Assembly (NCBI GenBank): GCA_024404315.1 | Contig: JAKSQD010000009.1 | Coordinates: 1-50,816, forward strand | Length of the DNA: 50,816 nt | Source of the DNA: Oscillospiraceae bacterium | Lineage (GTDB): Bacteria; Bacillota; Clostridia; Oscillospirales; Oscillospiraceae | Direction of reading: 5' to 3' | Part shown: positions 35,450 to 50,324 of the stretch, one piece after another | How positions within the stretch are numbered: the stretch's first letter is position 1 | How the letters are laid out: each line of letters begins with the position of its first letter | The notes under the pieces: model-generated | The model's input: only the letters and a program-made list of their open reading frames with translations | What the model was told of the DNA's origin: nothing | Database searches by the model: none | Program-made: the position numbers and the translations under genes

Positions 35450-35537
35450 GCGCGAGTGGTGGAATTGGTAGACTCGCCGGCTTCAGGTGCCGGTGCTCAT
35501 TGCGGGCGTGCGGGTTCGACTCCCGCCTCGCGCACCA
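35450..35537 (+). tRNA. tRNA-Leu (anticodon CAG)
   Basis: An 88-nt class II tRNA with a long variable arm, acceptor GCGCGAG pairing with CTCGCGC and encoded CCA. The anticodon loop TTCAGGT between CCGGC and GCCGG gives CAG (reads CTG). Its 3' end serves as the integration site of the mobile element. The gene stays intact because the element restores it. Confidence 0.95.
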
Positions 35538-35539
35538 AC
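35515..35539 (+). other. attL, 25-bp core in tRNA-Leu
   Basis: A 25-bp sequence covering the T arm and acceptor end of tRNA-Leu (starts TTCGACTCCC, ends CGCACCAAC), identical to 50300-50324. This direct repeat is the expected product of site-specific recombination into a tRNA 3' end by a tyrosine integrase. Confidence 0.9.
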
Positions 35540-35607
35540 TCCTCGGACTTAGGTTCGGGGAGTTTTCTTTTGGTTTTAGGCGATTTATTTGAATATTTAC
35601 GATATTT

Positions 35608-35640
35608 GCCTCTGAATTGTTCTGAGTTCAGAGGCTTCAT
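35608..35640. terminator. Terminator between tRNA-Leu and integrase
   Basis: GCCTCTGAA (35608-35616) and TTCAGAGGC (35627-35635) form a 9-bp stem. T-rich tails flank it on the plus strand. It separates host tRNA transcription from the element and could also end the minus-strand integrase transcript. Confidence 0.72.
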
Positions 35641-35657
35641 TTTTGCCCAAAATCGGT

Positions 35658-35678
35658 TTGACCCTTATTTTGACCCTT
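35658..35678. repeat. Left arm tandem repeat
   Basis: Two copies of TTGACCCTT separated by 3 bases, 119 bp inside attL. The same double repeat lies at 50166-50186 near the other end. Such arm sites are bound by the N-terminal domain of tyrosine integrases. Confidence 0.7.
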
Positions 35679-35742
35679 TACGGGATATAATTAGGTGATA
35701 CGGGATAGACACAACCCTTTTCAGAATGTTCCGAAAATGTTC

Positions 35743-36924
35743 TCAAAGACCGGAAACACTCTGGATTAACCTGTCCATACGTTCTGAACTTTCACGCTTC
35801 ATACTCGCCGTTGCGTGGGCGTAGGTTTCCAACGTAAAAGATGCCGTGTGGTGTCCGAGATTTTCCTGCAAGGTCTTGATGTCGTCACCAGCCTGCAAGG
35901 GCATGACGGCATAGGTGTGTCTCAGGTCGTGGAATCGGAAGTCAGGTAGTCCCATCTCCTCCATCACCTTTTTGAACTTGAGGTAGACCGTCTGTGCAGA
36001 AAGGTGATGTCCCCACTCGTTGACAAACACGAAGCCCTTGGGATTATCCCACGCATCTCCGAGAATCAACCGCTGCTCCATCTGCTGCGTTTGCAGCTTC
36101 AACAAACGAATGAGAATGTCCCTTGCGGGAGTCAGCGTCCGTGCCTTGTTGTTCTTCGGCGTGATGAGGGAATATTCACCCGAGCCGTCACGCTCTCTCT
36201 GGAGCTGCTTGGAGACGGTAATCGTGCCGTTGACGAAGTTGATGCTGTCCCACGTCAGTCCCAGAAGCTCTCCCTGACGCATACCGGTGAACAGTGCCAC
36301 ACGGAACAGGGTTTCAAACTCGTGACCCTCGATTTTCTTCAAGAATCGGGCAACATCGTCCTTGTCCATGGGATGAATCTCTGCTTTCTGCTTTCGGGGC
36401 AGCTTAGTATTGTCCGCCACATTGAATTTCAGATAGCCGATGCACACCGCATCCTGCAACGCCCTGTGAAGGACTCCGTGGATATTATGAACCGTCTTGG
36501 CAGAGAGTCCGCCGTCACCATCCTCACCTTCGTAGAGTTCATTGGTGAACATCTGGATATGTACCGGAGTCAGGGCTTTCAGCCTAATTCTGCCCAAAGC
36601 GGGCTTGATATGGTTCCGAACCGTTGAGCAATAGGAATTGACCGTGCGGGGCTTCACATCTTTCAGATAGTCCTTCATCCAGATGTCCAGCCAATCACCC
36701 AGAGCCATGTTGGACGGCTCGAAATAACTGCCCTCATCAATCTCAGAAGTGATTTTTCTCAGCTGTTCTCGCACTTCTTTCTGCGTTTTACCGTAAATAG
36801 ATTTCTGTATCTGTTTGCCTGTCGCTGGATCGACGCCCACCGTGTAGCGAGCCTCCCAGCGTGAATCACCACGTTTTCTCAGTGTTCCACCGCCCGCTGC
36901 GGAGCGTGTGGTTTTCTTTGCCAT
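35743..36924 (-). CDS. int: Tyrosine recombinase integrase
   Basis: A 393-residue phage-type integrase of the Tn916/ICE class. The N-terminal arm-binding domain is AP2-like (WEARYTVGVDPATGKQIQ), then a SAM-like core-binding domain (about 70-170). The catalytic domain has Arg216 (GMRQGELLG), His332 and Arg335 (FHDLRHTY), a GHH segment and Tyr368 (TLETYAHA). The second ATG (36924) is used because AGGAGG is seven bp upstream. The first one abuts the site. It lies 204 bp inside attL, the standard place. It should catalyse integration and excision at tRNA-Leu. Confidence 0.96.
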   Translation of the reverse strand: MAKKTTRSAAGGGTLRKRGDSRWEARYTVGVDPATGKQIQKSIYGKTQKEVREQLRKITSEIDEGSYFEPSNMALGDWLDIWMKDYLKDVKPRTVNSYCSTVRNHIKPALGRIRLKALTPVHIQMFTNELYEGEDGDGGLSAKTVHNIHGVLHRALQDAVCIGYLKFNVADNTKLPRKQKAEIHPMDKDDVARFLKKIEGHEFETLFRVALFTGMRQGELLGLTWDSINFVNGTITVSKQLQRERDGSGEYSLITPKNNKARTLTPARDILIRLLKLQTQQMEQRLILGDAWDNPKGFVFVNEWGHHLSAQTVYLKFKKVMEEMGLPDFRFHDLRHTYAVMPLQAGDDIKTLQENLGHHTASFTLETYAHATASMKRESSERMDRLIQSVSGL

Positions 36925-36991
36925 TGACATACCTCCTATTTTTCACAGGTGCAGTGGGCAGATCGCTTGCTCATCCGTCCACTGCGGGTTG

Positions 36992-37020
36992 ATTATACCA
37001 CATTATCGCAAGCACTTCAA
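36992..37020 (-). promoter_or_regulatory. Integrase promoter with leader hairpin
   Basis: On the minus strand TTGAAG (37015-37020) and TATAAT (36992-36997) are 17 bp apart. Just downstream the leader contains a hairpin, GCAGTGG and CCACTGC (36951-36985), before the AGGAGG of int. It could modulate integrase translation. Confidence 0.7.
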
Positions 37021-37051
37021 CGATTTAAAGCATAATATTTCGGGACAGATG

Positions 37052-37240
37052 TTAGATTTTTTCGGTGTGATTGTCCAGCCAGTCCAGCAGCTTGCTTTTC
37101 ATGACCCGCTTGCTGCGTCCGATCAGAATGGTGGGGAAGTCGGAAATGTTCATCAGGTTGTAGGCTCCTGCTCTGGAAATTTGCAGGATGCTCTGTAAAT
37201 CCTTTGCGGTGAGGATGTCGGGATAATTCTCCAGATTCAT
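37052..37240 (-). CDS. Excisionase-like helix-turn-helix protein
   Basis: A 62-residue DNA-binding protein of the MerR-like HTH_17/Xis type: DILTAKDLQSILQISRAGAYNLM is the helix-turn-helix, followed by the wing FPTILIGRSKRVMKSKLLDWL. An ATG at 37240 is used because AAGGAGGTG lies 6 bp upstream. It sits directly upstream of int on the same strand, the usual place for an excisionase that bends DNA at att sites and directs excision. Confidence 0.88.
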   Translation of the reverse strand: MNLENYPDILTAKDLQSILQISRAGAYNLMNISDFPTILIGRSKRVMKSKLLDWLDNHTEKI

Positions 37241-37253
37241 GTGTGTCACCTCC

Positions 37254-37892
37254 TTAGAAAAAACTTGCAATCCACTGAATACACCCAATCAGATGTCCGG
37301 CAAGAGACGCAAGAAAGAGATATATCAGCGTTTGATTGTTGTTGCTGACGGTTTGAAGGGTATTCATGGATTTCTCATACTGATTCGTTGCACGTTTGGA
37401 CATCTCCTCCAACTTGTTGAGATGAGCCTTAATTTTTCGTTCAAGATTTTCGATGCAGAATCCGAGGTCAACCTTTACGGTTTGATGAATATTGTTATAA
37501 ACTCGGCTCATTGCGTCGTTTACGCTTGAATTGAGGCTGCCGCTGAGCTGCTCGTTGCTGCTCTCTAAGCGTGCGATTTGCAGATCGTATCCGCTCAACG
37601 ATTGATCCACTCTGTCCAGCGTCTCGTTGACCCTCTTGAAGTACAGATTTTGCTTCTCCTCCAGTGCGTTCATCTCCTGCCGAAGCTCGGTGAGAGATTT
37701 CTTGAGGACGCTGTTTTCCAGCTCCAGCTTGTTCATGTGTGCGATGGTCTGCCAGCTCAGAACCTGCTCGCTCACTTCGGTTGAGCTGCTCTGCGGCGGC
37801 GTTAAGGTCTGCGGAGTTAAGGCAGAAGGTGAGGTCACTCTCTGTGCCTCGGTTCGGGAGGTCTCTCCCGTTGTTCTGTTGACTAATGCCAT
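37254..37892 (-). CDS. MobB-like coiled-coil membrane protein
   Basis: A 212-residue protein. Residues 1-50 are polar and Thr/Pro-rich. About 50-170 form a long coiled coil (LENSVLKKSLTELRQEMNAL, VDQSLSGYDLQIARLES). The C-terminus has one membrane helix, LIYLFLASLAGHLIGCIQWI. About 400 bp of its 5' part lie inside the 3' end of the relaxase gene in another frame (37495-37892). GGAAAGG precedes the ATG by 11 bp. The place and topology resemble MobB of RSF1010 and MbeB of ColE1, which help relaxase and are nested in the relaxase gene. Homology is not claimed. Confidence 0.78.
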   Translation of the reverse strand: MALVNRTTGETSRTEAQRVTSPSALTPQTLTPPQSSSTEVSEQVLSWQTIAHMNKLELENSVLKKSLTELRQEMNALEEKQNLYFKRVNETLDRVDQSLSGYDLQIARLESSNEQLSGSLNSSVNDAMSRVYNNIHQTVKVDLGFCIENLERKIKAHLNKLEEMSKRATNQYEKSMNTLQTVSNNNQTLIYLFLASLAGHLIGCIQWIASFF

Positions 37893-38808
37893 TTTCAATA
37901 TTACCTTTCCGGTAGCGTTCGCCCAATCGTCGGTCGGCTACCTTTCGTTTAGAATTTGGATGTAAATAAGAGAATCTTCCACGGCTTTCGGTTACTTCCA
38001 CGCCGTAGTCTTGAAATAATTTCTGAACAAAATCGTCCAGACTGGAACATTTTGGAAGTGTTGCGTCTATGACCTGACGCAGCTCCTCCTTTTGCGTGTC
38101 AAAGATGGTTTCCTTGGGCTGCTTGCCCTCGGCTATCAGCTTGGCATTTTCTGCATCCAATTTCTTCTGACCGTTCTGCTGAACGTGATACTCCTTGTCG
38201 GAAACTCGTTTTTCAGCACCAGACAGCAAATCAATTTGATATAGACCACGCTCTTGACACATCTCCATCACTTTTTCACGAAGATGTCGCATTAGCTTTC
38301 CAGTACAGCGGTGCTTGGCTCCTGCTTTTGTGTCACATGGTCTGTCCATGTAATCCTTCCGCTCCACATTCTCAATACGGACGGAATTGATAACAATATG
38401 GACATGGAGATTTCCAGCCTTGTGGTGTCCGTCGGCGTGGGCACAGATAAGTGCCTGATGACCAGCGAAATTCTCACGGCAGAATTGCTCCCCCATTTGA
38501 TGGACTTCCTCAAGCGTGAGATTGTGGTCATCCCTGTCTCTTGGGTCAAAAGAAATTATGTAATGGTGGCTCTTTACATCGCCCTTGTTCTGATTCTGCC
38601 CATACCTCAGATTTGCCTTGATGCACTCCATGGCGTAAGTATCAGGGGTGCAGTGGATGCCGGAAATGATGTATTCCTGACGAGGGATGTAGTGACCATG
38701 CTCATCAAGAATGGGACGCTGAGTGTCCTCGTCATGCTCGTATTCCAGATATAACTCAGCCGCACCGTAGTTGGCGTTCTTGCTGGAACCGTGCTTAATG
38801 ACTGCCAT
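37495..38808 (-). CDS. MOB-P type relaxase
   Basis: A 437-residue mobilization protein. The catalytic Tyr is probably one of the N-terminal tyrosines (Tyr14 or Tyr20). The metal-binding motif is HHYIISFDPRD (81-91) with GNLHVHIVINSVR (His135 and His137), typical of MOBP relaxases. The C-terminal third is hydrophilic and low in structure (RAGSELADHRTHEQAGAGKQ), probably because it also encodes the nested gene in another frame. It should nick oriT and lead DNA transfer. The start overlaps the end of mobC by 14 bp. No type IV secretion genes are present, so the element needs a helper. Confidence 0.93.
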   Translation of the reverse strand: MAVIKHGSSKNANYGAAELYLEYEHDEDTQRPILDEHGHYIPRQEYIISGIHCTPDTYAMECIKANLRYGQNQNKGDVKSHHYIISFDPRDRDDHNLTLEEVHQMGEQFCRENFAGHQALICAHADGHHKAGNLHVHIVINSVRIENVERKDYMDRPCDTKAGAKHRCTGKLMRHLREKVMEMCQERGLYQIDLLSGAEKRVSDKEYHVQQNGQKKLDAENAKLIAEGKQPKETIFDTQKEELRQVIDATLPKCSSLDDFVQKLFQDYGVEVTESRGRFSYLHPNSKRKVADRRLGERYRKGNIENGISQQNNGRDLPNRGTESDLTFCLNSADLNAAAEQLNRSERAGSELADHRTHEQAGAGKQRPQEISHRASAGDERTGGEAKSVLQEGQRDAGQSGSIVERIRSANRTLREQQRAAQRQPQFKRKRRNEPSL

Positions 38809-39169
38809 AGAAGTTCCCGATGATCTTCATGCTGTCGAATTTCAGCTTGTTCAGCTCTCCGACATAGAGCCGCAGATCACGGCACAGTTCCCTGTCCAGA
38901 CTTCCACCGCCGTTGAGCCAACGAGCAATCTGATTGAGATTGTTGCCAATCCTGCCATACTGTGCCAAAAGCTTCTCAAGACCCTCAATGGGGCTTGCCT
39001 CGATTTTGGGTGCTTCCTGTACCGGAGTTCCGAAAATCGCACAGCGAAGGTACTCCGCCTGAGATAGACCAGTTCGCTTTAAAATGTTGTCAAATTCGAG
39101 TTTCTCGTCGTAAGAAAGTCGAGTTTTCACAACGATGTCACGGGGACTTTCCCCGATGTTATGTTTCAT
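38795..39169 (-). CDS. mobC: Relaxosome protein MobC
   Basis: A 124-residue protein of the MobC family: RDIVVKTRLSYDEKLEFDNI with a ribbon-helix-helix-like start and the conserved AQYGRIGNNLNQIARWLN. It aids relaxase in opening oriT. The start at 39169 follows GGAGG by about 10 bp and gives the usual length. It is the first gene of the minus-strand mobilization operon, and it starts next to the hairpin array that may hold oriT. Confidence 0.92.
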   Translation of the reverse strand: MKHNIGESPRDIVVKTRLSYDEKLEFDNILKRTGLSQAEYLRCAIFGTPVQEAPKIEASPIEGLEKLLAQYGRIGNNLNQIARWLNGGGSLDRELCRDLRLYVGELNKLKFDSMKIIGNFYGSH

Positions 39170-39206
39170 AAAATTGAACCTCCGTGGTTTGATTTTTTGA
39201 AATAGT

Positions 39207-39657
39207 CCGCCGTAGGCGGCATCTGCGTCCATAGGACGCTCTGCGGAAACCGTAGGGTTCCGCTAAACCGGAGAACATTTGATGCTGGCTTATGAGCATA
39301 AAATGTTCGGAGCCGAGGGGTCTGGGGGAATCGGAATCCCACAGCAAGTATTGACCAAAATGGGACGCATAGCGGTACCATGGTCGATACTTGCTCTTTA
39401 TTTGCCCACACGTTCCCCGAACCGAGGGGGGATAATCCCACGAACTGTGTGGGCAAATATGGGCGGCGAATTTCTGAACTTTTCGGGCTGGAAAAGTACG
39501 GAATCTGAGCCGCCCATCTCAAACTGGGACGGCAAAGCCGGAACAGTTTGTATGTCCCCTGCAAGACGCAAGTCTGGAAGGGGACATATTCGGGACGGAA
39601 CGATTCGGGCAAAACTGGCGAAAAAGTCAGGTCTGCTTGAAGCGATAATTCCGTCCC
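39207..39657. other. Hairpin array, candidate oriT region
   Basis: A 450-bp noncoding stretch upstream of mobC with about nine consecutive inverted repeats. Examples are GCGTCC/GGACGC (39225-39239), GCGGAA/TTCCGC (39243-39262), a 15-bp arm pair with one mismatch (39343-39357 and 39381-39395), TTTGCCCACACGTTC with its near complement (39401-39457), ATGGGCGGC/GCCGCCCAT (39459-39517), TATGTCCCCT/AGGGGACATA (39551-39588) and GGGACGGAA/TTCCGTCCC (39592-39657). One of them could hold the relaxase nick site. Long overlapping open frames here on both strands look like chance products of these repeats. The 39658-40027 part shows only the upstream region of the next gene. Confidence 0.65.
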
Positions 39658-40027
39658 GCTGCGTTCTGAATTTGCACCCAAAAGTTGCCAGAATGCTCAG
39701 CGATTCGCCCTGCGAGAGCTACATGAAAAGTGAAGAAAATGTTCCAACCATTTCAAAGGATTGCTCATATCCACAAAAAGAATATTTCCCTTTTTTATCG
39801 AATTTGTTGAGTTATCCCGTTTACGACACTTTTCTTCTAAATTGCACGTTATAATTGATTGATAGAGTAAAATCACCTCTTTTGTTTACAGAATCGTAAA
39901 TTATTGTCCAAAATAAAGTTGTATCATGATACTTGTGGCGGCTCGTGGAGCCTGTTATTATCATAAGCTACGATGCGATTTTTTTACAGGTCAGCCAGTT
40001 GTCAGTAAATTGTCAAGGAGATTTTTG

Positions 40028-42256
40028 ATGTCAAATACCCTCTGTTTTTCCGCCGTTTCTCAAATCATTCTGCAAAATACCATCCAAAGCTATCAAATTC
40101 GCTTTTTTATGGAGTTGTTGTGCGACTGTGTTCCGACCGATGGTATCGTAGACTGGGAGATAACCAACTTTAGCAAGGCAATTCACGGAAAACGCCCCCT
40201 ATTTCCACAGGTTTGTGAATATTATGCTGATAGTTCCACACAGAAAGAACTGACGGACAGCGTGGAAGATGTACTGTTGCCTTCCGTTGCTGATGTTCCC
40301 AAACTGGTACGTGAACTGGAAGTGCTGGTTCGGTGTGACGGGACGATCTCACCCTTGAAGAAAAAGGAACTACTGAACGGAACGTATGCAGAAATTGTTG
40401 CTCAAATCATCCGTTTTTCCATTTTGCGTCCAAATCAGCCCACCGAAAGTGCATCTCCAAAAATAGAACGACAATTTCGTGGTGTAAATGTGCCGAAAAC
40501 TGTCAAATCTTTCATTGGGCGGGAGAATGAACTTGAGGATATAAAAACACATCTGGAAGAAGAACATCAGCTTTTTCTCACAGGAGTTGCGGGAATCGGC
40601 AAAAAAGAGCTGGCGAAGCAGTATGTCAAACTGCATCGAAAAGAGTACGTAAATTGTATCTATCTGCGGTTTCATAGCAGTTATTATGACACGATTGCTG
40701 ATATGTGGCACAGCGATGACCGACAGGAGGACACCGTAGAAGAACGATTTTGGAAACATTTTCGCCTGTTAAGCTGTTTGGGTGAGGATAGTCTGCTGAT
40801 TATCTCCGGTGTGGATGTTCTGCCGGAGGAAAACAAGGGTTTTGAGCATCTGGACAAGCTGTTTTGTCAGGTGATTGTGACTTCTACACTGGAATGGAAG
40901 AACAAAAACACGATAAAAGCAACGGAATTACCCGACAATGATTGCATATCACTGTTTTATTCCATCTGTCCGAAACAAAAATGCAGAAAGACACGTGAGA
41001 GCGAAATTGAGCATCTGCTGCGTCTGGCACATCATCACACCTACGCTGTGAAGCTGCTGGCACTGACGGTGAAGGAGGGCTTTGATAGCGTGAACAGCCT
41101 TTGCGATAGGTTGGAGCGATACGGAGGCTGTCCATCCATTGACACGATGGTGGAGATTCAGCAGGAAGAAAGCTATCTTTACGATACATACAGCCAGATT
41201 TTAAACAATATCCTCCAAATTGAGAACCTTTCCGACGCACAACGAGAAGTATTGACTAATATCTGCCTGATGCCGCCGACGGGTATAAAAAAAGCCCGAT
41301 TCGCAAAGTGGATCGGACAGGTAAGAGAGCTGCAATATTTGATTCGGATGGGATGGATTCAAGAGGACAGCGACGGCATAATTTTCATGAATGGACTGGT
41401 GCGTGATCTGGCAACGGAGCAGCTCAAACCAACCGCTGAAATGTGTCAAAAGATGCTGGACTGGATGGTGAAGGACAGCAAGACCGCCAAAGAGGACAAG
41501 GCTCTGGAATTGGTTCGGTGCATGGGAAGTGTGTTTGGAAGTCTGCATGGACTAAACGGTTCAGTTTTAGGGTATCTCACCGCATTTATGGACTTTTTGC
41601 AGCGTTCCAATACAGATATAACGAATATCCTATTATCCCCACTCCAAAAGGAAAACAACATGACACCGGAAAATCGGACGCTCTTTCTTGTCATTCACAC
41701 GCAGCAATTAGTGATTGATTATTCCGCTGCCATGACCAAGGGGGAGATTTATCCCCTTGAAGCAAGTTATCAGGACATGATGGAGGAACTAAAAGCACTT
41801 CTTCCACTTTTAGGAAAAGAAAATGTGGCTATTCTGGCTGTACCCTGTTATCTGCTAATCAGCTTGGCAACACTGAGCAAGGATGTTGACCGTTTGATTG
41901 AACTGATTCAGGTAAAAAATAAGATAATTTGTGTGTCAGAGAGTCACTTTCCAAACTATGATGGGGATATACTGGCATTATGGGGTGTTTTGGCGATGCT
42001 GTATGAGCGTCCAGAGCTGAAAGATGTATTCTTGGAGTTATACGATGAGGAATACAGGGAATCCGAGGAGCATGGGGATAGTGCGGAATATCTGGAAAAG
42101 CTCCGTGAGATGGAAATTGTGGCAAGAAATTTGGATAGATATGATACTTTAGAGGAGTATATGGAGGAGATGCTGCGGATTGCAGAGTTGGTACCGATGA
42201 TTGGGAATATGTTAAGAAAGGTTTCTGATAAGAATAATATCAAGCTGGAAAATTAG
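40028..42256 (+). CDS. STAND family NTPase
   Basis: A 742-residue protein with NB-ARC-like organisation. Residues 1-165 form an N-terminal helical domain of unknown kind. Near 170-185 FIGRENELEDIKTHL marks the start of the NTPase. Walker A is GVAGIGKKE (186-194), Walker B is LLIISGVDVL (about 255-265), and a winged-helix part follows (ICLMPPTGIKKARFAKWIG). Residues about 500-742 are helical, probably a repeat sensor. The start at 40028 has AAGGAG seven bp upstream. STAND proteins often trigger cell death or defence on sensing a phage or host signal. No known effector domain such as TIR or nuclease is visible. It lies between the mobilization genes and the restriction cassette. Confidence 0.85.
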   Translation: MSNTLCFSAVSQIILQNTIQSYQIRFFMELLCDCVPTDGIVDWEITNFSKAIHGKRPLFPQVCEYYADSSTQKELTDSVEDVLLPSVADVPKLVRELEVLVRCDGTISPLKKKELLNGTYAEIVAQIIRFSILRPNQPTESASPKIERQFRGVNVPKTVKSFIGRENELEDIKTHLEEEHQLFLTGVAGIGKKELAKQYVKLHRKEYVNCIYLRFHSSYYDTIADMWHSDDRQEDTVEERFWKHFRLLSCLGEDSLLIISGVDVLPEENKGFEHLDKLFCQVIVTSTLEWKNKNTIKATELPDNDCISLFYSICPKQKCRKTRESEIEHLLRLAHHHTYAVKLLALTVKEGFDSVNSLCDRLERYGGCPSIDTMVEIQQEESYLYDTYSQILNNILQIENLSDAQREVLTNICLMPPTGIKKARFAKWIGQVRELQYLIRMGWIQEDSDGIIFMNGLVRDLATEQLKPTAEMCQKMLDWMVKDSKTAKEDKALELVRCMGSVFGSLHGLNGSVLGYLTAFMDFLQRSNTDITNILLSPLQKENNMTPENRTLFLVIHTQQLVIDYSAAMTKGEIYPLEASYQDMMEELKALLPLLGKENVAILAVPCYLLISLATLSKDVDRLIELIQVKNKIICVSESHFPNYDGDILALWGVLAMLYERPELKDVFLELYDEEYRESEEHGDSAEYLEKLREMEIVARNLDRYDTLEEYMEEMLRIAELVPMIGNMLRKVSDKNNIKLEN

Positions 42257-42448
42257 GAACGTTTTTTGTGTACGAATTGACTTTTACTCATAGTAAGGAT
42301 CACTTTTATTCAACTGCAACCGTTGTTTTATGAGAGAAGAATTGCTCTTAGTTTGGTTTTCGGATATCGTAGTAAAATTGCTTTTTCGAATTGGATGTAT
42401 ACCGTAATCAATTGAATAAGCTGGAATCAGCGTTCGCTGAATTTTACG

Positions 42449-42479
42449 TTGCAATTCTGATAGTACTCTGATATACTAT
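42449..42479 (+). promoter_or_regulatory. Promoter and operator of the defence cassette
   Basis: TTGCAA (42449-42454) and TATACT (42472-42477) separated by 17 bp, 33 bp before the XRE start. The inverted repeat ATAGTA (42460-42465) / TACTAT (42474-42479) overlaps the spacer and -10, fitting an autoregulatory operator of the XRE protein. The AT-rich 42257-42448 region shows nothing else. Confidence 0.72.
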
Positions 42480-42509
42480 ATTTTGAATTGATTTAGGGGT
42501 GATAATATC

Positions 42510-42719
42510 ATGGCAGTAAGTTATCAGCGACTTTGGAAGTTGTTAGAAAAAAGAAATATGAAGAAAAAGGATTTATGCTTAGCCGCTGGAATAAGCCATG
42601 CTTCTATGGCAAAACTGGGAAAGAACCAAAACATCACTACAGATATTCTCGTAAAAATATGTGCAGCATTAGACTGTGATTTTTGCGATATAATGGAACT
42701 CTCCAGTGAAATTTCCTAA
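42510..42719 (+). CDS. XRE family regulator, possible C protein
   Basis: A 69-residue Cro/CI-type DNA-binding protein: YQRLWKLLEKRNMKKKDLCLAAGISHASMAKLGKNQNITTDILVKICAALDCDFCDIME covers the five helices (cores KKDLCLAAGISHASMAKLG and ILVKICAALDC). It is the first gene of the cassette, 31 bp before the fused methyltransferase. In many restriction-modification systems a controller protein of this size delays nuclease expression. GGGGTGATA precedes the ATG. It is equally close to the YozG-type regulators of other operons, so the controller role is inference. Confidence 0.85.
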   Translation: MAVSYQRLWKLLEKRNMKKKDLCLAAGISHASMAKLGKNQNITTDILVKICAALDCDFCDIMELSSEIS

Positions 42720-42750
42720 CTTTCTGTTGTTCACCTTGAGGTAATATACA

Positions 42751-45270
42751 ATGTTAAAAGATAAAACATTAACTTATATTTCGCTTTTTAGTTCGGCTGG
42801 TGTCGGCTGTTATGGATTTAAGCAAGAAGGATATCAGTGCATCGCTACAAATGAGTTATTAGACCGTCGAATGGCTGTTCAGAGAGCAAATCACAAATGC
42901 ACTCATGAGTCTGGATATATTACAGGTGATATATCTGAAGCTGAGGTTAAAGAAAGAGTTTATGAGGAAATCAAAAAGTGGAGTAAAGCAGGTAATGATC
43001 GTGTCGATGTCTTAATTGCTACTCCCCCCTGTCAGGGGATCAGCGTCATTAATCATAAAAAGAATTCTTCTGACATTAACCGTAATAGCTTGGTAGTTGA
43101 GTCTATTGAATTAATAAAAAATATCGTCCCACGATTTTTTATCTTCGAAAACGTGATGGCGTTCCAGAAAACTCTGTGCATTACTCCTGACGGGGATGCT
43201 GTGCCTATTGGAGATTATATTCGTGCCGAATTAGGGGATAAATATATTATTACTGGAAGAATTATGAACTTTATGAACTACGGTTCTAATTCTTCTAGAA
43301 CTCGAACTGTTGTTATTGGTGTAGATAAAACGTACAGAAACAACATTGTGCCTTATGATTTATACCCTTCATTTAGAGCGGAAAAAACGCTGAGAGATGT
43401 TATTTATCATTTTCCCCAATTAGAATGGGGAGAGATTTGTAAAAATGATTTTTATCACGCATTTCGAACTTATTCTGAAAGAATGAGACCTTGGATCCAT
43501 GATCTGAAAGAGTGCGAATCTGCTTTTGATAATGAAGATCCTGCAAAGCGTCCCCATCAAATTAAAAACGGACAGATAGTGTATAATGTACGTAAGAATA
43601 GAGATAAATACACTAGACAACCGTGGGATCGTTTTGTTCAGTGCGTACATACCCGTAATGATCAATTAGCTGCTCAGAATACAATTCATCCAGAGCAGGA
43701 TAGAGTGTTTAGTATTCGTGAGATTATGGCTATGATGACTATTCCGCATGATTTTAAGTGGATAAACTATGATTTAGATGAATTAAATGCTATGCCAGAG
43801 GGGGAGAAAAGGAAATTATATAAAGAGCACGAAGTGAATATCAGACAATGTTTAGGAGAAGCTGTTCCCACAGAAATAATGAGACAGATTGCTCATAACA
43901 TTAAAAATTCTCTGATGAACTATAAAGGGGATTCGTCCAACATTAATAAAGTCATTATAGAAAATAAACTTGATATTCCTGCGAATTTATTTCAGTTTTT
44001 GTCTTGTAATCCTTTGCACCTGGATATTTCTTCGTTGATGCGTATAGCCGAATTATGCAATGCAAAAAGAGAAGAAAATGCGGCTTTTTATACAAATAAG
44101 TTTATTGTAAACGAAATTGTCGAGAAGTTACCCACATTTTCTAAAAGCGAAATCCGGATTTTAGAGCCATCTGTAGGTGTCGGCAGTTTTATTCCTTTCC
44201 TTTTTAGAAAATACGAAAATATTCCTCATGTTACTCTGGATGTTGTAGATATAGACGCTCAAAGCATTGAGTATCTGAAAATTCTTCTATCTAAAATTGG
44301 AATTCCTGCTAATTTTTCCATTAACTACATCTGTGGAGATTTTTTGACAACAAACTTTCCGTATAGATATGATTTGGCAATCGGCAATCCGCCATTTTCC
44401 AAAATAAAGTCTAATAATCCAAACAGAGGCAAGATTATCTCACAAAATGCTAACAAGCGTACAAATAATCTTTCAGAGTTTTTTTTGGAGCGCTGTGTCC
44501 AAATTAGCGATTATGTTTCGTTGGTTCTAAATAAGACACTTCTTAGCACTGATGAATTTGCAGAGACAAGAGAATGGCTTCGAAATAAAAAAATAGAACG
44601 TATACTTGATTTTGGAAGACATGGATTTACAGGTATCTCCATTGAAACAATGTGCTTAATCATCGCATCTAAGCAAAAGCCTGAATATACAATTGTTTAC
44701 AATATGAAGTATAATAGGCATTACAAGCAGGAGCAAAAGTATATCACCGATAATTATTTCCCTTATTTTATTATTTATAGAGACCAGCATTTTGACAAAA
44801 TAGCATCAAAATTGCAGTTTGGTGTGTTTGATGTATTCAGAGACCGACAAATAACCAAGGCAATCACAACAACTGAACAACGTTGTAGGGATTATTGGGT
44901 CATTAAAGCACGGAATATCAATGATGACGGTTCTGGAATAACACATATTCCAGGGTACGATGTATTTTTAAATGCTAACAAAGCAGAGAAACTTACTGCG
45001 TTCCAATTCGTAAATAATGAAAATGTGTATTTAACTCCCAATATGACATATAACCCCCGTGTCATAGAAAACCTTCCAAATGTAATTGTCGATGGTTCGG
45101 TTGCTATCTTGATTCCTAAAGTTCCGTTAAAATTGACACAAAAACAAATGAGGTATTTTTCTTCTGATGAATACAGGCATTTTTATGGAATTGCAAGAAA
45201 CCTGTCAACCCAATCAATCAATGTTGATAAAACAAGTGTTTTTTTCTATGGAGTGTTGAAAGATGACTAA
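42751..45270 (+). CDS. Bifunctional m5C and m6A DNA methyltransferase
   Basis: An 839-residue fusion. Residues 1-370 are a cytosine-5 methyltransferase: motif I LFSSAGVGCYG (near residue 10), motif IV TPPCQG with Cys94, motif VI FENV, motif VIII SSRTRTVVIG, and motifs IX-X around residue 300-370. Residues about 440-680 are an adenine-N6 methyltransferase: ENAAFYTNKFIV, SAM motif EPSVGVGSF (472-480), and catalytic NPPF (546-549). The remaining 150 residues probably form a target recognition domain. Both halves keep their catalytic residues. The AT-rich codon use differs strongly from host genes. The stop overlaps the nuclease start by 8 bp. Confidence 0.92.
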   Translation: MLKDKTLTYISLFSSAGVGCYGFKQEGYQCIATNELLDRRMAVQRANHKCTHESGYITGDISEAEVKERVYEEIKKWSKAGNDRVDVLIATPPCQGISVINHKKNSSDINRNSLVVESIELIKNIVPRFFIFENVMAFQKTLCITPDGDAVPIGDYIRAELGDKYIITGRIMNFMNYGSNSSRTRTVVIGVDKTYRNNIVPYDLYPSFRAEKTLRDVIYHFPQLEWGEICKNDFYHAFRTYSERMRPWIHDLKECESAFDNEDPAKRPHQIKNGQIVYNVRKNRDKYTRQPWDRFVQCVHTRNDQLAAQNTIHPEQDRVFSIREIMAMMTIPHDFKWINYDLDELNAMPEGEKRKLYKEHEVNIRQCLGEAVPTEIMRQIAHNIKNSLMNYKGDSSNINKVIIENKLDIPANLFQFLSCNPLHLDISSLMRIAELCNAKREENAAFYTNKFIVNEIVEKLPTFSKSEIRILEPSVGVGSFIPFLFRKYENIPHVTLDVVDIDAQSIEYLKILLSKIGIPANFSINYICGDFLTTNFPYRYDLAIGNPPFSKIKSNNPNRGKIISQNANKRTNNLSEFFLERCVQISDYVSLVLNKTLLSTDEFAETREWLRNKKIERILDFGRHGFTGISIETMCLIIASKQKPEYTIVYNMKYNRHYKQEQKYITDNYFPYFIIYRDQHFDKIASKLQFGVFDVFRDRQITKAITTTEQRCRDYWVIKARNINDDGSGITHIPGYDVFLNANKAEKLTAFQFVNNENVYLTPNMTYNPRVIENLPNVIVDGSVAILIPKVPLKLTQKQMRYFSSDEYRHFYGIARNLSTQSINVDKTSVFFYGVLKDD

Positions 45271-46477
45271 TGCGGTAGTTCATGATTTTATCAATGAGCA
45301 TACTTATGATATTCGTGTTTCAGGTAACGGAAGATGGATTGACCAGAAGTGTACGATGGATGTTGTGTGCTTTGTTGCTGACTGTATTGTTGATTACATT
45401 CAAAATGGCGGTCAGCAACCATTCCAATCTCCTGACATCTGGCATTCTGACTATGCGGTTCAAAGTGTTCAAGATTTTTTTGGCAAGCCTGATCCTATGA
45501 ATTACTCAGCTCACGATGAATTTAACAAGTTTTTCCGTCAGCCGATGAAGATGCTGGCTGCTGCTGGTGTCCTTAAAGAAAACGGTCGTAAGAAAGCAAC
45601 GATTCAGTTTTCTGTTGCAAATATGGAGGTGCTGGAATTCATTGCACTCAGAGAAAAGAACGCATACAATTTTCTGTGTATGTATGTTGAAAAAACATTA
45701 AAAGATAGCGGTCTCTGGGGATCATTTGAACGCTTCTTTGACGCACAGGATAAAACTGAATACCAAAATGTAAAAGAACGTTTTTCGGAGTTTTCTATTC
45801 AATATACTAAAATCGGTACAACGGTTGAGGCAAATCGCATTTTTACGAAAGTTCTTAATATTTTGGCGTGTAAATATCACAAAAAAGGTAGTGAAAGAGG
45901 GCATATCTCTAAAAAATTCATTACTTTCGATAAAATCATGTATAATCAGGTTAATTGGCGAGATGAATTGAGCGGAAAAGAGAAAAATGTTGCCAGAAGA
46001 GACTATAATCCCGCTGCAACAGTAGATAGTTCCTATTATAAGTATCGAATTGACAGAGCAATCAAAAATCTGCGTCAATTCAACGATAAGTACAACCACT
46101 CACGTTCTGAGGTTCTGGATGCTATGTCCATAGGAAATCCAGCTACCCATATGCACCATATTTTTCCCAAAAACACGTTTGCAGAAATTGCTGACTACCT
46201 TGAAAATCTTATTGCCATTACTGCTGGTCAGCATATGCAAAAGGCGCATCCTGACGGAAATACCCAGATTGTTGATCGGGATTTTCAGTATCTTTGTTTA
46301 CTGTGCAAAACCGAAAGTATCAAGCAGAATATTTTGGGAAGTCACAATGTGCCTGTCATATATAGTTTTGAGTGTTTTACTCATGTTCTGGCTACCGGAT
46401 TAGGAAAACCGGAGTTTGAAGAACTTGCCGAGAATGACTTTGAAGCTGTAATTAATCATATAGAAGTTTGCTATTAA
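45263..46477 (+). CDS. HNH family restriction endonuclease
   Basis: A 404-residue protein. The C-terminal HNH (beta-beta-alpha metal) nuclease motif is THMHHIFPKNTF at about 293-304, followed by the Asn in LENLIAIT (about 313-320) and the His in AGQHMQKAHP. Residues 1-280 do not match anything that I know and probably recognise DNA. Translation is coupled to the fused methyltransferase by an 8-bp overlap. This suggests that it cuts the sequence protected by that enzyme. Two methyl activities with one HNH nuclease is the pattern expected for an asymmetric (Type IIS-like) target. Confidence 0.85.
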   Translation: MTNAVVHDFINEHTYDIRVSGNGRWIDQKCTMDVVCFVADCIVDYIQNGGQQPFQSPDIWHSDYAVQSVQDFFGKPDPMNYSAHDEFNKFFRQPMKMLAAAGVLKENGRKKATIQFSVANMEVLEFIALREKNAYNFLCMYVEKTLKDSGLWGSFERFFDAQDKTEYQNVKERFSEFSIQYTKIGTTVEANRIFTKVLNILACKYHKKGSERGHISKKFITFDKIMYNQVNWRDELSGKEKNVARRDYNPAATVDSSYYKYRIDRAIKNLRQFNDKYNHSRSEVLDAMSIGNPATHMHHIFPKNTFAEIADYLENLIAITAGQHMQKAHPDGNTQIVDRDFQYLCLLCKTESIKQNILGSHNVPVIYSFECFTHVLATGLGKPEFEELAENDFEAVINHIEVCY

Positions 46478-46511
46478 CCGTTTGTTATTATATTATCATA
46501 GGAATTACACA

Positions 46512-47591
46512 ATGCCGATTGAAATTTATTCTTTTTTTTCAGGTTTAGGTTTTTTAGACTTAGGTTTTGAAAATGCAGGTTTTAATATTGAATTTGTAAA
46601 TGAATATAACGAACATTTTCTTACGGCATATCAATATGCGAGAAGAAATAATCTTCATACCCCTGTTTACGGATATAGCCACGAAGATGTAAGGTACTAC
46701 CTATTAGATGATAATTGGAATAAAACTTTTCCGAATTATACTAATCGAGCAAATCGTTATATAGGTTTTATTGGAGGGCCACCATGTCCTGATTTCTCAA
46801 CGGCTGGAAAGAACAAAGGAGCAGATGGAAAGAATGGTCAATTAACATCAGTATATATTGAGCTAATAAAAAAACGTCAACCTGATTTTTTTGTGCTAGA
46901 GAATGTAAAAGGATTGTATCAGACAAAGAAACACAAAGAATTCTATGATAGAATGAAACAAGAGTTGCTCTCTTCAGGTTACGAACTTTTTGACTCTATT
47001 GAAAACGCATTAACCTATGGAGTTCCTCAAGATCGAGAAAGACTTATATTAGTAGGCTTTAGAAAAAGAACTTTTGGTAATAATATTGTATATAAAATAG
47101 GGAATCACAGAGAGTTTGATCTTGATTATATTAAGAGCCTTACTTGGCCAACAGTTAGAGCTTTTGCTGCCAATAGCGATTTAGAACGTCCTGATGGAAT
47201 CATTCCTTCATTAACCGTTGAATATTGGTTTCGAAAGAATGATGTGCAGAATCATTTAAATAGTAAAAATATATTTCGTGTAAAAAATATGCAACGATTT
47301 ATAAGTATCGCAGAAGGAGATATTAGCGGAAAATCTTTCAAACGTTTACACAGATGGAGATACTCGCCAACTGCTGCGTATGGAAATAATGAAGTTCACT
47401 TACATCCTTATCTCCCGAGACGGATTAGTGTTGCCGAAGCATTAGCAATTCAGTCATTACCATCAAGTTTTGAATTGTTACCACAATTATCTCTCTCTGA
47501 AAAATTTAAAATGATAGGAAATGGTGTACCTTATTTATTGGCACTCGGAATTGCAAACGATTTATGTGAATGGATTGAAAAGTTAGAATAG
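46512..47591 (+). CDS. Cytosine-5 DNA methyltransferase
   Basis: A 359-residue methyltransferase with all main motifs: IYSFFSGLGFLDLGFENAGF (motif I, core FFSGLGFLDLGF), GGPPCPDFS (motif IV, Cys92), VLENVKGL (motif VI), GVPQDRERLILVGF (motif VIII) and SEKFKMIGNGVP (motif X). PPCPDFS in place of PPCQ is a known variation. The ATG at 46512 is chosen for its AGGAA. A longer frame from 46482 has a weaker site. It is the third methyltransferase activity in the cassette. It may protect the other strand or half of the same target, or belong to the module that follows. Confidence 0.93.
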   Translation: MPIEIYSFFSGLGFLDLGFENAGFNIEFVNEYNEHFLTAYQYARRNNLHTPVYGYSHEDVRYYLLDDNWNKTFPNYTNRANRYIGFIGGPPCPDFSTAGKNKGADGKNGQLTSVYIELIKKRQPDFFVLENVKGLYQTKKHKEFYDRMKQELLSSGYELFDSIENALTYGVPQDRERLILVGFRKRTFGNNIVYKIGNHREFDLDYIKSLTWPTVRAFAANSDLERPDGIIPSLTVEYWFRKNDVQNHLNSKNIFRVKNMQRFISIAEGDISGKSFKRLHRWRYSPTAAYGNNEVHLHPYLPRRISVAEALAIQSLPSSFELLPQLSLSEKFKMIGNGVPYLLALGIANDLCEWIEKLE

Positions 47592-47600
47592 GTGATTATA

Positions 47601-48233
47601 ATGGTCAGTCAAGAAATAATAAAAAGTGACTTGTCAACATTAGATTCTAAAGAATTTTACCTTAAACACATTGTGAAGTCTCACAATTGGTATTTATCAG
47701 ATTATCTTCATACTCCACAAAATGAAATAATCGATAAAATGGATTACTTCAAAGAAATTGTTTCAACTAATTTCGGCATAAATTTTCATAATTGTCAAAT
47801 TGTTGGTAGTGCAAAAACAGGTTTTAGTCTATCTCCAAATAAACTGCTTAAACCTTTCCATGAAGAGACCCCATCAACTAATTCTTCCGACATTGATATT
47901 GCAATAATTTCTGATCAACTTTACACAGAGTATTGGTCAGCATTAAGGCAGGAAAAAACTATTCATGCTCCCTTCAATAAAACATACTATAATAGAATTG
48001 CGGCTTCAATATTTCGAGGTTATATAAATGAAAAAGATTTAATTAGATTTCAAGGAATAAAGAAAAAATGGAGCAAATTAATTTCTCCAGCAAATGTCCA
48101 ATTGCAAGATAACCTAGGCTTTATTCACCCAATTACATATCGACTATATCGGAGTTGGGATGATCTGGAAGAATATCAACTTATTGGCATCACAAAAGCA
48201 AAGTCAAAAATGGAGGAATCTTTGAATGTTTAA
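47601..48233 (+). CDS. Nucleotidyltransferase-fold protein
   Basis: A 210-residue protein with a minimal nucleotidyltransferase signature: VGSAKTGFSL at about 67-77 (the G-S helix) and SSDIDIAII with Asp97 and Asp99 as metal ligands. The spacing of about 28 residues is like that in CD-NTases and DNA polymerase beta-fold enzymes. The third acidic residue is not clear. No HEPN partner is next to it, so it is not a standard MNT-HEPN toxin-antitoxin. The start at 47601 follows AGGTG. It lies 9 bp after the m5C gene and overlaps the DUF262 gene by 8 bp, so the two products are likely made together. Confidence 0.78.
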   Translation: MVSQEIIKSDLSTLDSKEFYLKHIVKSHNWYLSDYLHTPQNEIIDKMDYFKEIVSTNFGINFHNCQIVGSAKTGFSLSPNKLLKPFHEETPSTNSSDIDIAIISDQLYTEYWSALRQEKTIHAPFNKTYYNRIAASIFRGYINEKDLIRFQGIKKKWSKLISPANVQLQDNLGFIHPITYRLYRSWDDLEEYQLIGITKAKSKMEESLNV

Positions 48234-49407
48234 ATTTGTTGATAATAAGAAGTCAATTAGTGAAATATATAGTATGTTCAAAGAAGGAAAACTAATTGTG
48301 GATGAGACCTATCAACGTCGTGCCGTATGGGGGAATAGGGATAAAATCAGATTAATAGAAACAATTCTATTGAATTTGGTTATACCTCCACTGTTTTTTT
48401 GGAAAGCAGAAACTGATCCCGAAACTGGAGAGTCCATAACTCACATTGTCGACGGTCAGCAGAGGATAAAAGCAATTTATGATTTTATCGATGATCAATA
48501 TAAACTTAAACGCCATGATTTATTAGATTTATCTGCACAAAATTCATATGCTGATAAATCATTTCGAGAGTTAAGTGCTTCTCAAAAAACAGATTTTTGG
48601 AATTATCAGTTAATGGTTATCGATATTGATCCTGGAGCAACACGTGATGACATTATCACGATGTTTAACCGTTTAAATTTAACTGACTATAATTTAAATG
48701 ATCAAGAAAAGAGAAATAGTGTATCTGGCGAATTTGCTGCCCTGGCAAGAGAAATATCGGAATGTACCTTATGGGAAGACAAGAAACTATTTACTAATAC
48801 AGACGTTAAAAGAATGAAAGATGTTGAATTTTGTGCATCTTTAATTCTACTTTTTAGAAATGGAATTATTGACCAAACAGATCAAGGGGCTTTGAATCAA
48901 GCCTATGATGAACTTCAAGTTGGATATGAAGATGCTGAAAACGATAAATCAAGCGTCTGCCGTGCAATTGAAACGATACAATCTTTTTTCACTAATGATG
49001 AAGTATCAAAGTTTCTCCGACGAAAGGCTCAATTGTACACATTATTTAGCGTTATTTTTTATATGCAGCGTCAAAATATCCCACTTAGTCATGAATATAT
49101 TTATAATTTTGAGCAATTTGTGGCGCTTTATTCTGTATTTAATAATGATATGGATATATCCTCAGAACTGCATGAAAACGAAAAAAATCTCTTTGATTTG
49201 TTAAAAAAATATAAACTTGCGTCGTCTGAAGGATTAAACAAGCACACAAATAGAATGATTCGCTACAATGTGATGAAGAAGTTTTTATTTGACTTAGATG
49301 AATCAACAGAAACCGCTAGAATTACGTTGCGCACTCAAATGGAAAGACACACTGAAAATAGTATGCAACTTCAGCTGAATCTTGCGGATGGAAGTATAGC
49401 TGAATAA
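48226..49407 (+). CDS. DUF262 (GmrS-like) domain protein
   Basis: A 393-residue protein. The DUF262 ParB/sulfiredoxin-like domain (about 10-200) shows YQRRAVWGNRDKIRLIETIL (29-48) and HIVDGQQRIKAIYDFI (about 76-91). These are the nucleotide-binding motifs of the GmrS half of GmrSD. The DUF1524 HNH half of GmrSD is not present in this polypeptide. The C-terminal half is helical and unassigned. It overlaps the nucleotidyltransferase gene by 8 bp and is the last gene of the cassette. A role in nucleotide-dependent nuclease activity is known for the family. Its role here is open. Confidence 0.88.
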   Translation: MFKFVDNKKSISEIYSMFKEGKLIVDETYQRRAVWGNRDKIRLIETILLNLVIPPLFFWKAETDPETGESITHIVDGQQRIKAIYDFIDDQYKLKRHDLLDLSAQNSYADKSFRELSASQKTDFWNYQLMVIDIDPGATRDDIITMFNRLNLTDYNLNDQEKRNSVSGEFAALAREISECTLWEDKKLFTNTDVKRMKDVEFCASLILLFRNGIIDQTDQGALNQAYDELQVGYEDAENDKSSVCRAIETIQSFFTNDEVSKFLRRKAQLYTLFSVIFYMQRQNIPLSHEYIYNFEQFVALYSVFNNDMDISSELHENEKNLFDLLKKYKLASSEGLNKHTNRMIRYNVMKKFLFDLDESTETARITLRTQMERHTENSMQLQLNLADGSIAE

Positions 49408-49413
49408 AATTTA

Positions 49414-49445
49414 AAGGATGAGAAGAAGTTCATCATCTCATCCTT
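49414..49445. terminator. Convergent terminator of the cassette
   Basis: AAGGATGAGA (49414-49423) and TCTCATCCTT (49436-49445) form a 10-bp stem between the plus-strand cassette and the minus-strand gene ending at 49453. T-rich sequence lies on the minus-strand side. Confidence 0.72.
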
Positions 49446-49452
49446 ATGCTAA

Positions 49453-49737
49453 TTATTTATACAAGTCAAAAATCTTTGTCAATTTGATTCCATCTATCAC
49501 ACCCAGCCGGTACATCACCTTCTCCACATTAGCGGACTGGTGAAATGTATGCTCGGTAAATGCCTGAATAGCTTCTGAATCATCCTCGCTCAGCTTGTCC
49601 AAGGCAGACCAGTAGCCCTTTTCCAATCTTATCAGTTCGTCTTTGTGGGGACGCAGCTCGTCTATATGTTCTTCGTAAAGCTGTTCAAGGCGTTCTCCGA
49701 TTACGGTGTTCAGAAATTCTCTGTCTCTGTTCGTCAT
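49453..49737 (-). CDS. Hypothetical protein of the element, 94 residues
   Basis: A small acidic helical protein (FLNTVIGERLEQLYEEHIDEL, WSALDKLSEDDSEAIQAFTE) without cysteine motifs or membrane segments. It lies 11 bp downstream of another small gene on the same strand, and both have host-like GC content, unlike the defence cassette. The pair occupies the right end of the element next to the arm repeats. No function is recognised. An accessory role in maintenance or regulation of the element is possible. Confidence 0.72.
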   Translation of the reverse strand: MTNRDREFLNTVIGERLEQLYEEHIDELRPHKDELIRLEKGYWSALDKLSEDDSEAIQAFTEHTFHQSANVEKVMYRLGVIDGIKLTKIFDLYK

Positions 49738-49748
49738 ATCCGTTCACC

Positions 49749-50114
49749 TCACGCATAGATCAGCTCAGCGAGGACGATCCTCTCAGCGGCATCATTGATG
49801 GCATCCATATCATCCCCATCAGAGCGTCCATTCCAATCCATCTCCTCCCCATCAGAGCGTCCATTCCAATCCATCTCCTCCAGCATCTCCTGAACGAGAT
49901 TCTTCTTCATGGTCACAGCCTGCATCTCAATTTCCGCAGCCAGCGACCAAAGCTGACCCGTGAGGGTGTAGAACTGATACAACTTTTTGTCGATTTTCTC
50001 CAGATGCTCCTGATAGAGCTGTCCATAGCGTCCAATGGATTCATACTGCTCGGACAGCTCAGAGAAATCACGAATCGGCGTAAAAAGTGAAAACTGCAAC
50101 TTTTCGTGGTACAT
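49749..50114 (-). CDS. Hypothetical helical protein with tandem repeat
   Basis: A 121-residue protein, mostly helical (LYQEHLEKIDKKLYQFYTLT, LWSLAAEIEMQAVTMKKNLV). A 33-bp tandem duplication in the gene gives two copies of the segment EEMDWNGRSDG near residues 77-99. AAGGAG precedes the ATG at 50114. It is probably co-transcribed with the 94-residue gene that follows. No family is recognised. Confidence 0.72.
   Translation of the reverse strand: MYHEKLQFSLFTPIRDFSELSEQYESIGRYGQLYQEHLEKIDKKLYQFYTLTGQLWSLAAEIEMQAVTMKKNLVQEMLEEMDWNGRSDGEEMDWNGRSDGDDMDAINDAAERIVLAELIYA
49814..49879. repeat. 33-bp tandem repeat, two copies
   Basis: Two adjacent identical 33-bp units (starting at 49814 and 49847) within the 121-residue gene. 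In-frame, each encodes 11 residues. The exact identity suggests recent duplication or ongoing slippage. Confidence 0.9.
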
Positions 50115-50165
50115 AACAAAACTCCTTCAAATGTGACCGGTTCCATCGGCAAGCACGATGGAGTT

Positions 50166-50186
50166 TTGACCCTTATTTTGACCCTT
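50166..50186. repeat. Right arm tandem repeat
   Basis: The same double TTGACCCTT repeat as at 35658-35678, in the same orientation and 114 bp inside attR. The nearly equal distance from each core supports an arm-type integrase site. Confidence 0.75.
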
Positions 50187-50299
50187 AACAGGAACACAAA
50201 ATGAAATATTGTGTGGTATTATTAGACTGATTTTTGCTCAGATACAGAAATAATGGAGTGAATTGTACTCAAAATATTCAAAAGATTTCGGTTTCACAA

Positions 50300-50324
50300 T
50301 TCGACTCCCGCCTCGCGCACCAAC
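50300..50324 (+). other. attR, 25-bp core repeat
   Basis: An exact copy of the tRNA-Leu 3' end at 35515-35539. The flanking bases differ, so it is the far junction of the integrated element and not a second tRNA gene. Confidence 0.9.

Follow-up and report, generated by a model that had tools for sequence, protein, structure and literature searches.

The 50,816 nucleotides of contig JAKSQD010000009.1 from an Oscillospiraceae bacterium (assembly GCA_024404315.1; this whole stretch is hereafter the window) carry an operon of six genes on a mobile element, and the operon divides into two predicted defence modules. Module A (genes 1-3) encodes a regulator followed by a restriction-modification (R-M) pair of a known type, and module B (genes 4-6) is a trio encoding a 5-methylcytosine (m5C) methyltransferase (M2), a nucleotidyltransferase-like protein (NTase) and a DUF262 protein that resembles NsnA. 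The trio is found in the same order in all eight loci with a close homolog of the NTase, and R-M genes of four kinds adjoin it in seven of them (a raw count among eight loci). We favour the reading, to which we give an even chance, that two defence modules share this operon and that module B, a DUF262 unit of NsnA-like kind, was recruited to accompany R-M systems.

Organisation of the operon

Six open reading frames (ORFs) are packed on the + strand within 42510-49407, and were assigned together with two flanking features as follows.

42510-42719, +, gene 1, XRE/Cro regulator (HTH_26, E 3e-17)
42751-45270, +, gene 2, fused m5C~m6A (N6-methyladenine) methyltransferase of M.HpyAV type (PDLC03277, E 1.3e-257; also PDLC03370 and PDLC03382; motifs PPCQ, ENV and NPPF)
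45263-46477, +, gene 3, HNH endonuclease of HpyAV type (PADLOC REase_II PDLC03488, E 2.6e-125; H298, H299, N315, H324)
46512-47591, +, gene 4, M2, m5C methyltransferase of Cfr10I/BsrFI type (PF00145; 29-residue segment)
47592-48233, +, gene 5, NTase (GSAK...DID motif; phrog_32008 of unknown function, E 7e-10)
48226-49407, +, gene 6, DUF262 protein, NsnA-like (PF03235, E 2.8e-20; NsnA match)
42449-42477, +, promoter-like site before the XRE gene, TTGCAA-17-TATACT with TG (consensus match)
49414-49445, +, hairpin 3' of the last gene, a possible terminator lacking a strict run of T (-15.4 kcal/mol, z -3.95)

The initial annotation had described six tightly spaced genes running head to tail, and this was confirmed; the ORFs are real and AT-rich, and as first listed they are separated by no more than 31 bp or overlap by 8 bp. 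The ORF of gene 4 opens at TTG 46482, and its homologs make ATG 46512 the likelier start, which gives a gap of 34 bp. The ORF of gene 5 opens at GTG 47592, and its homologs mostly begin about three codons downstream. The low GC content that had been claimed was also found, with 31-38% in the six genes against 44-52% in the integrase, relaxase and ATPase genes of the element backbone. A single promoter common to the six genes is plausible, as had been proposed; the promoter-like site lies in front of gene 1, but such sites are no commoner in the region than in shuffled sequence (21 found, against a mean of 31.3 in shuffles). The hairpin was not reported by the terminator scan.

The proposed identities of genes 1-4 and 6 (XRE, m5C-m6A fusion, HNH, second m5C methyltransferase and DUF262) are supported by Pfam and PADLOC matches and by motifs, the Pfam families being HTH_26 (gene 1), DNA_methylase and Eco57I (gene 2), DNA_methylase (gene 4) and GmrSD_N/DUF262 (gene 6). 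Genes 3 and 5 have no Pfam match. The nucleotidyltransferase fold ascribed to gene 5 is tentative; the protein has the GSAK...DID motif, and the predicted model (pLDDT 69.7) gave weak nucleotidyltransferase matches.

Genes 2 and 3 resemble the HpyAV and Hin4II systems

The product of gene 2 has 839 residues and aligns nearly end to end with the 823-position PADLOC model PDLC03277, and its two halves match models of 387 (PDLC03370) and 445 (PDLC03382) positions. PMC2816704 gives lengths of 823 for M.HpyAV, 387 for M1.Hin4II and 445 for M2.Hin4II, and the three models, when paired with these enzymes by length, presumably represent them. There the methyltransferase of HpyAV is described as an m5C~m6A fusion, m5C part first, and the endonuclease as encoded downstream in the same direction. 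Gene 2 likewise encodes an m5C~m6A fusion of about 820 residues, m5C first, and an HNH nuclease of about 400 residues is encoded downstream in the same direction, in which the spacing H-H, 16, N, 9, H is that of HpyAV (H298, H299, N315 and H324 in gene 3; H294, H295, N311 and H320 in HpyAV, also from PMC2816704). Because the model lengths, the fusion, the gene order and the HNH spacing match HpyAV, genes 2 and 3 are, on their sequences, an ordinary and already known type IIS R-M pair of the HpyAV/Hin4II type, and the Type II R-M component of the initial annotation is upheld. HpyAV and Hin4II are type IIS systems (CCTTC 6/5), and module A probably protects and cuts CCTTC sites. The window operon differs from both in the addition of the XRE gene and then of the trio.

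An assignment of genes 2 and 3 to the Alw26I/Esp3I type was rejected, as in the window the m5C part comes first and its motifs are in canonical order, whereas PMC3874165 and PMC5944983 describe the m5C enzymes of that type as circularly permuted and the gamma m6A enzyme of Esp3I as preceding the m5C enzyme. Relatives of gene 3 are present on three plasmids (L011, L012 and L013) with 37-42% identity, and in L013 the m5C and m6A methyltransferases are separate genes adjoining the nuclease, as in Hin4II. No trio is annotated in the stretches fetched around these three relatives, the annotation of which is incomplete according to PLSDB.

The trio is conserved independently of module A

Genomes were scanned with the gene 5 protein, and eight loci (L002-L009) were returned, of which seven (L002-L008) match over nearly the full length with 59-65% identity. 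L009 was set aside, as its NTase match covers 33 residues only and neither M2 nor DUF262 was matched in this locus. In the window and the seven retained loci the order is M2-NTase-DUF262 throughout (in L007 the contig stops 46 residues into DUF262), and M2 stops 5 bp or less before the NTase start or overlaps the NTase. The HpyAV-like pair is beside the trio in two of the eight, the window and L008, where it lies upstream with 70% and 61% identity. Judged by this gene order, genes 4-6 are a conserved unit of their own, and the module border falls after gene 3 (3+3).

The initial annotation had set the first four genes apart from the last two, and this grouping has to be abandoned, as genes 4-6 are together in 8/8 loci and genes 2-3 are with them in 2/8. 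It had also left a choice between one system and two adjacent ones; two adjacent systems fit better than a single system of six parts. The genome search that it proposed did not find the six-gene order, including the XRE gene, in the other loci, L008 having five of the genes and no XRE match at E 1e-4. That all six genes form an integrated system, every part needing the others, is therefore very improbable: the tight operon, the shared low GC content and the five-gene block repeated in L008 would suit it, but the HpyAV-like pair is missing from six of the eight trios, the three plasmid HNH relatives have no annotated trio in the stretches fetched, and the XRE gene is not conserved in L008.

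In further genome scans the NTase was found in 1/394 (order, single sequence), 3/398 (phylum), 3/299 (class of G497), 2/391 (class) and 3/400 (family); these five sets overlap, the window itself (G000) is counted in four of them, and the other two matches in the family are L002 and L004. In the best concatenated tree the trios of the window and L008 are not sisters, and because the approximately unbiased (AU) test allows a single clade (p 0.147), nothing is concluded on whether pair and trio joined twice. The trios of L005 and L006, both with EcoRII-like neighbours, are likewise apart in the tree, and a single clade was not rejected (AU p 0.245).

R-M genes beside the trio

The genes adjoining the trio are as follows.

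Window and L008: HpyAV-like pair, upstream
L007: EcoO109I-like endonuclease, m5C methyltransferase and Vsr
L004: C-terminus of an EcoO109I-like endonuclease, at the contig edge
L005: EcoRII-like endonuclease, m5C methyltransferase and Vsr, upstream
L006: EcoRII-like endonuclease (by PADLOC only, with the same model as that of L005), m5C methyltransferase and Vsr (by eye), downstream of the trio
L002: m5C methyltransferase, DUF4928/REase_II protein and Vsr (by eye)

In the remaining locus, L003, an HTH gene but none of an R-M system is seen, on a contig that extends for about 350 bp on the upstream side and 30 bp on the downstream side. As judged by eye, L002 (5215-5445) and L003 (1-330) have in common a small HTH gene that precedes the R-M genes or the trio.

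The gap between the R-M genes and M2 is 25 bp in L004, 26 bp in L007, 28 bp in L005, 34 bp in the window, 42 bp in L002 and 45 bp in L008, when measured to the M2 ATG common to the homologs; the first possible start gives 4 bp in the window and 30 bp in L008. Gaps of 25-45 bp behind four kinds of R-M genes, in 6/6 upstream cases, suggest cotranscription. They argue against the trio being a plain defence-island neighbour, found beside R-M genes merely because mobile elements gather defence genes, which we consider rather unlikely. In favour of such gathering are the STAND-like ATPase gene that the element also carries, and two NTase-DUF262 pairs without M2 (see below), one adjoining a Drt8 gene and the other a retron-RT-like gene. 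Furthermore, the R-M genes of L006 come after the trio, with a gap of about 140 bp, which weighs against cotranscription. The suggestion in the initial annotation that the last genes back up the restriction part gains some support from the 7/8 trios that abut R-M genes, with the correction that the add-on is genes 4-6 and not the last two.

Kinship of M2

Four plasmid relatives of M2 were inspected (H47, H48, H49 and H52; 39-50% identity), one of which sits on the Geobacillus plasmid pBsrF30. In the three that are annotated, an endonuclease of the Cfr10I/Bse634I family adjoins the methyltransferase on the opposite strand (3/3), and the fourth (L031), which has no annotation, is outside this count. 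The recognition domain lies in a variable region, and within that region a segment of 29 residues adjoining motif IX shows 83-90% identity between M2 and these three Cfr10I-type enzymes, which share 33-49% with M2 over the rest. In six other m5C enzymes the identity of this segment is 7-24%. By sequence similarity M2 is therefore a Cfr10I/BsrFI-type m5C methyltransferase, with a nearly identical segment on the recognition side. The Cfr10I/BsrFI enzymes target RCCGGY, which is accordingly the predicted target of M2.

The endonuclease family PF07832 (Cfr10I/Bse634I) was detected in none of the eight trio genomes, several of which are metagenome-assembled genomes (MAGs) and may be incomplete, versus 3/3 control plasmids. 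The difference from the Cfr10I/BsrFI systems is thus that the window has no detected endonuclease of this family and that NTase-DUF262 follows M2, occupying the position where its relatives keep the endonuclease. The trio could itself be R-M-like, with M2 guarding host sites of RCCGGY type and NTase-DUF262 standing in for the Cfr10I endonuclease, either to attack invaders or to shut down cells when unmethylated sites appear. This is a real possibility, if one that we lean against. The retained recognition-side segment, the missing PF07832 endonuclease, the close or overlapping junction of M2 and NTase, and the presence of a trio without R-M genes on the short contig of L003 are all consistent with it; against these stand the six pairs described below, where M2 is not needed as a protector, the lack of a recognised nuclease domain in NTase-DUF262, and the partial incompleteness of the MAGs.

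NTase and DUF262 proteins and pairs without M2

Gene 6 matches NsnA (PDLC03877) with E 1.7e-36 over residues 8-336, and has VDGQQR at 75; nsn is the gene designation of Menshen (NsnA-B-C). Neither a DUF1524/HNH domain (Pfam) nor an HH or DHI(Y/F)P-like motif was found in it. The match to PD-T4-2_A (E 6e-19) is weaker than that to NsnA, and neither the NTase nor the DUF262 protein matched a B component, the presence of a B model being unchecked. Gene 6 also matches the PADLOC model REase_II PDLC03418 (E 1e-6), which hints at a DUF262-like protein classed elsewhere as a type II endonuclease.

A GS...DxD motif was found by pattern in 12/13 members of the NTase family, and is missing in L028. In six loci that lack M2, the NTase gene immediately precedes a DUF262 gene: L010, which is a Pseudoalteromonas plasmid, L021, L022, L027, L028 and L039, the last with a stop inside the NTase match. 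Together with the eight trios, the NTase is directly 5' of DUF262 in 14/14 loci. NsnA is the best match for all five pair DUF262 proteins scanned (L010, L021, L022, L027 and L028; E 4e-20 to 5e-41). No type II R-M genes were noticed beside the six pairs, which were mostly read by eye, L010 alone being annotated and L028 having about 0.5 kb upstream. In L022 (6515-10108) the pair adjoins a Drt8 reverse transcriptase gene, and in L027 (5034-8571) the protein encoded beside it has matches to the RT-Toprim_I-C models of retrons. In L021 (6524-10363) and L039 (5745-8807, reverse), which belong to two genome groups, the pair comes directly after a guaA-like gene (by eye), a possible common insertion site.

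The window NTase had no match in phages at E 0.01, and of 149 stretches of viral contigs that met a pattern in a scan with the NTase alignment none was confirmed. Two jumbo-phage matches of the L021 NTase (E 0.2) were rejected, the one inspected being a protein of 509 residues without the motif, as was H46 (an Aliarcobacter plasmid), where the L010 NTase match covers 64 residues (E 3e-4) and no DUF262 gene is annotated in the stretch. An NsnA-like DUF262 gene is carried by phage vB_EcoM-689R6 of E. coli (L041, 2447-4158), with a gene next to it for a small downstream protein that contains RNACAH, a HEPN-like motif of the form Rx4H, and with an integrase adjoining; on an Asticcacaulis plasmid (L015, 5983-8129) a DUF262 gene abuts a protein kinase gene. 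These may be cases of partner swapping.

According to PMC10952713, the DUF262 domain of BrxU and SspE is an NTPase linked to modified DNA, DUF262 is present without DUF1524 in Menshen and Dazbog, and the Menshen partner is an OLD nuclease. Gene 6 is like Menshen in matching NsnA over most of its length, but the window operon has the NTase and M2 where Menshen has the OLD nuclease. No OLD/TOPRIM match was found among nine window proteins scanned, including all six of the operon, and no NsnB match was returned for the NTases of the window, L008, L010, L021, L022, L027 and L028, although a diverged NsnB is possible and the presence of an NsnB model in the library is unchecked. With GmrSD, BrxU and SspE gene 6 shares DUF262 and the DGQQR motif, and differs in having no DUF1524 HNH domain; the comparison with GmrSD in the initial annotation holds for the GmrSD_N/DUF262 domain and not beyond it.

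NTase-DUF262 could alternatively be a toxin-antitoxin-like abortive pair, in which a DUF262 effector is modified and held in check by the NTase, M2 being an orphan methyltransferase that has hitch-hiked along. The constant NTase-first order resembles that of MNT-HEPN systems, where, according to PMC3710099, MNT is encoded first and is the proposed antitoxin; the window differs in that the partner is DUF262, with no HEPN Pfam match, and that the NTase has no Pfam match. M2 is however retained in 8/8 close loci, unlike a hitch-hiker, and DUF262 proteins are known as sensors or NTPases and not as stand-alone toxins, which makes this explanation distinctly unlikely.

Neither the trio nor the NTase-DUF262 pair was found described in literature on DUF262, NsnA, Menshen and nucleotidyltransferases, though work on Menshen domain polymorphism could already cover an NTase variant. 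As far as these searches reach, module B is an undescribed combination, best called a variant of DUF262/R-M defence.

The host element

The operon is carried by a mobilizable element of 14.8 kb (35515-50324), integrated in a tRNA-Leu gene and bounded by a perfect direct repeat of 25 bp that copies the 3' end of that gene.

35515-35539, +, left att repeat, covering the 3' end of tRNA-Leu 35450-35537 (tRNA by ARAGORN)
35743-36930, -, tyrosine integrase (NCBIfam XerA/XerC-like, best E 1e-26, below curated cut-offs)
37495-38808, -, mobilization relaxase-like gene (NF040665 relax_SAG1250, E 8e-6, below its cut-off)
39926-42256, +, STAND-like NTPase gene, upstream of and outside the operon (ATPase_2/nSTAND3 Pfam matches below cut-off)
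50300-50324, +, right att repeat, perfect 25-bp repeat of the left

A TnpV gene is also present. The gene for the STAND-like ATPase (776 residues), which matches PDC-S01 with E 2e-5, may be a further defence gene.

Possible function of module B

Under the favoured reading, with module B as a companion of R-M systems, we infer a role in phage defence. M2 would mark host DNA at RCCGGY-like sites, and gene 6, a putative GmrS/NsnA-like NTPase that has no nuclease domain, would sense DNA lacking (or bearing) this mark and then activate the NTase, the candidate effector, which may nucleotidylate a host or phage target. With a DUF262 sensor and an NTase effector, module B would therefore back up module A by another kind of attack. 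A more specific proposal, put forward tentatively and in our view doubtful, is that the trio is an R-M-like system that has no restriction nuclease: NTase-DUF262 would have replaced the endonuclease of M2, loss of RCCGGY methylation would trigger the NTase, and the trio would spread as a plug-in that gives type II R-M operons of unrelated kinds a second line of defence.

Two points are of interest: the trio has become attached repeatedly to R-M operons that are not related to one another, and NTase-DUF262 appears to have taken the place of an endonuclease. If the trio works in this way, epigenetic self-marking would be coupled to an effector that is not a nuclease, and R-M operons would carry a standard, exchangeable back-up module. 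The trio is also a small, testable unit in which to study sensing by NsnA-like DUF262 proteins and the way in which they activate different partners.
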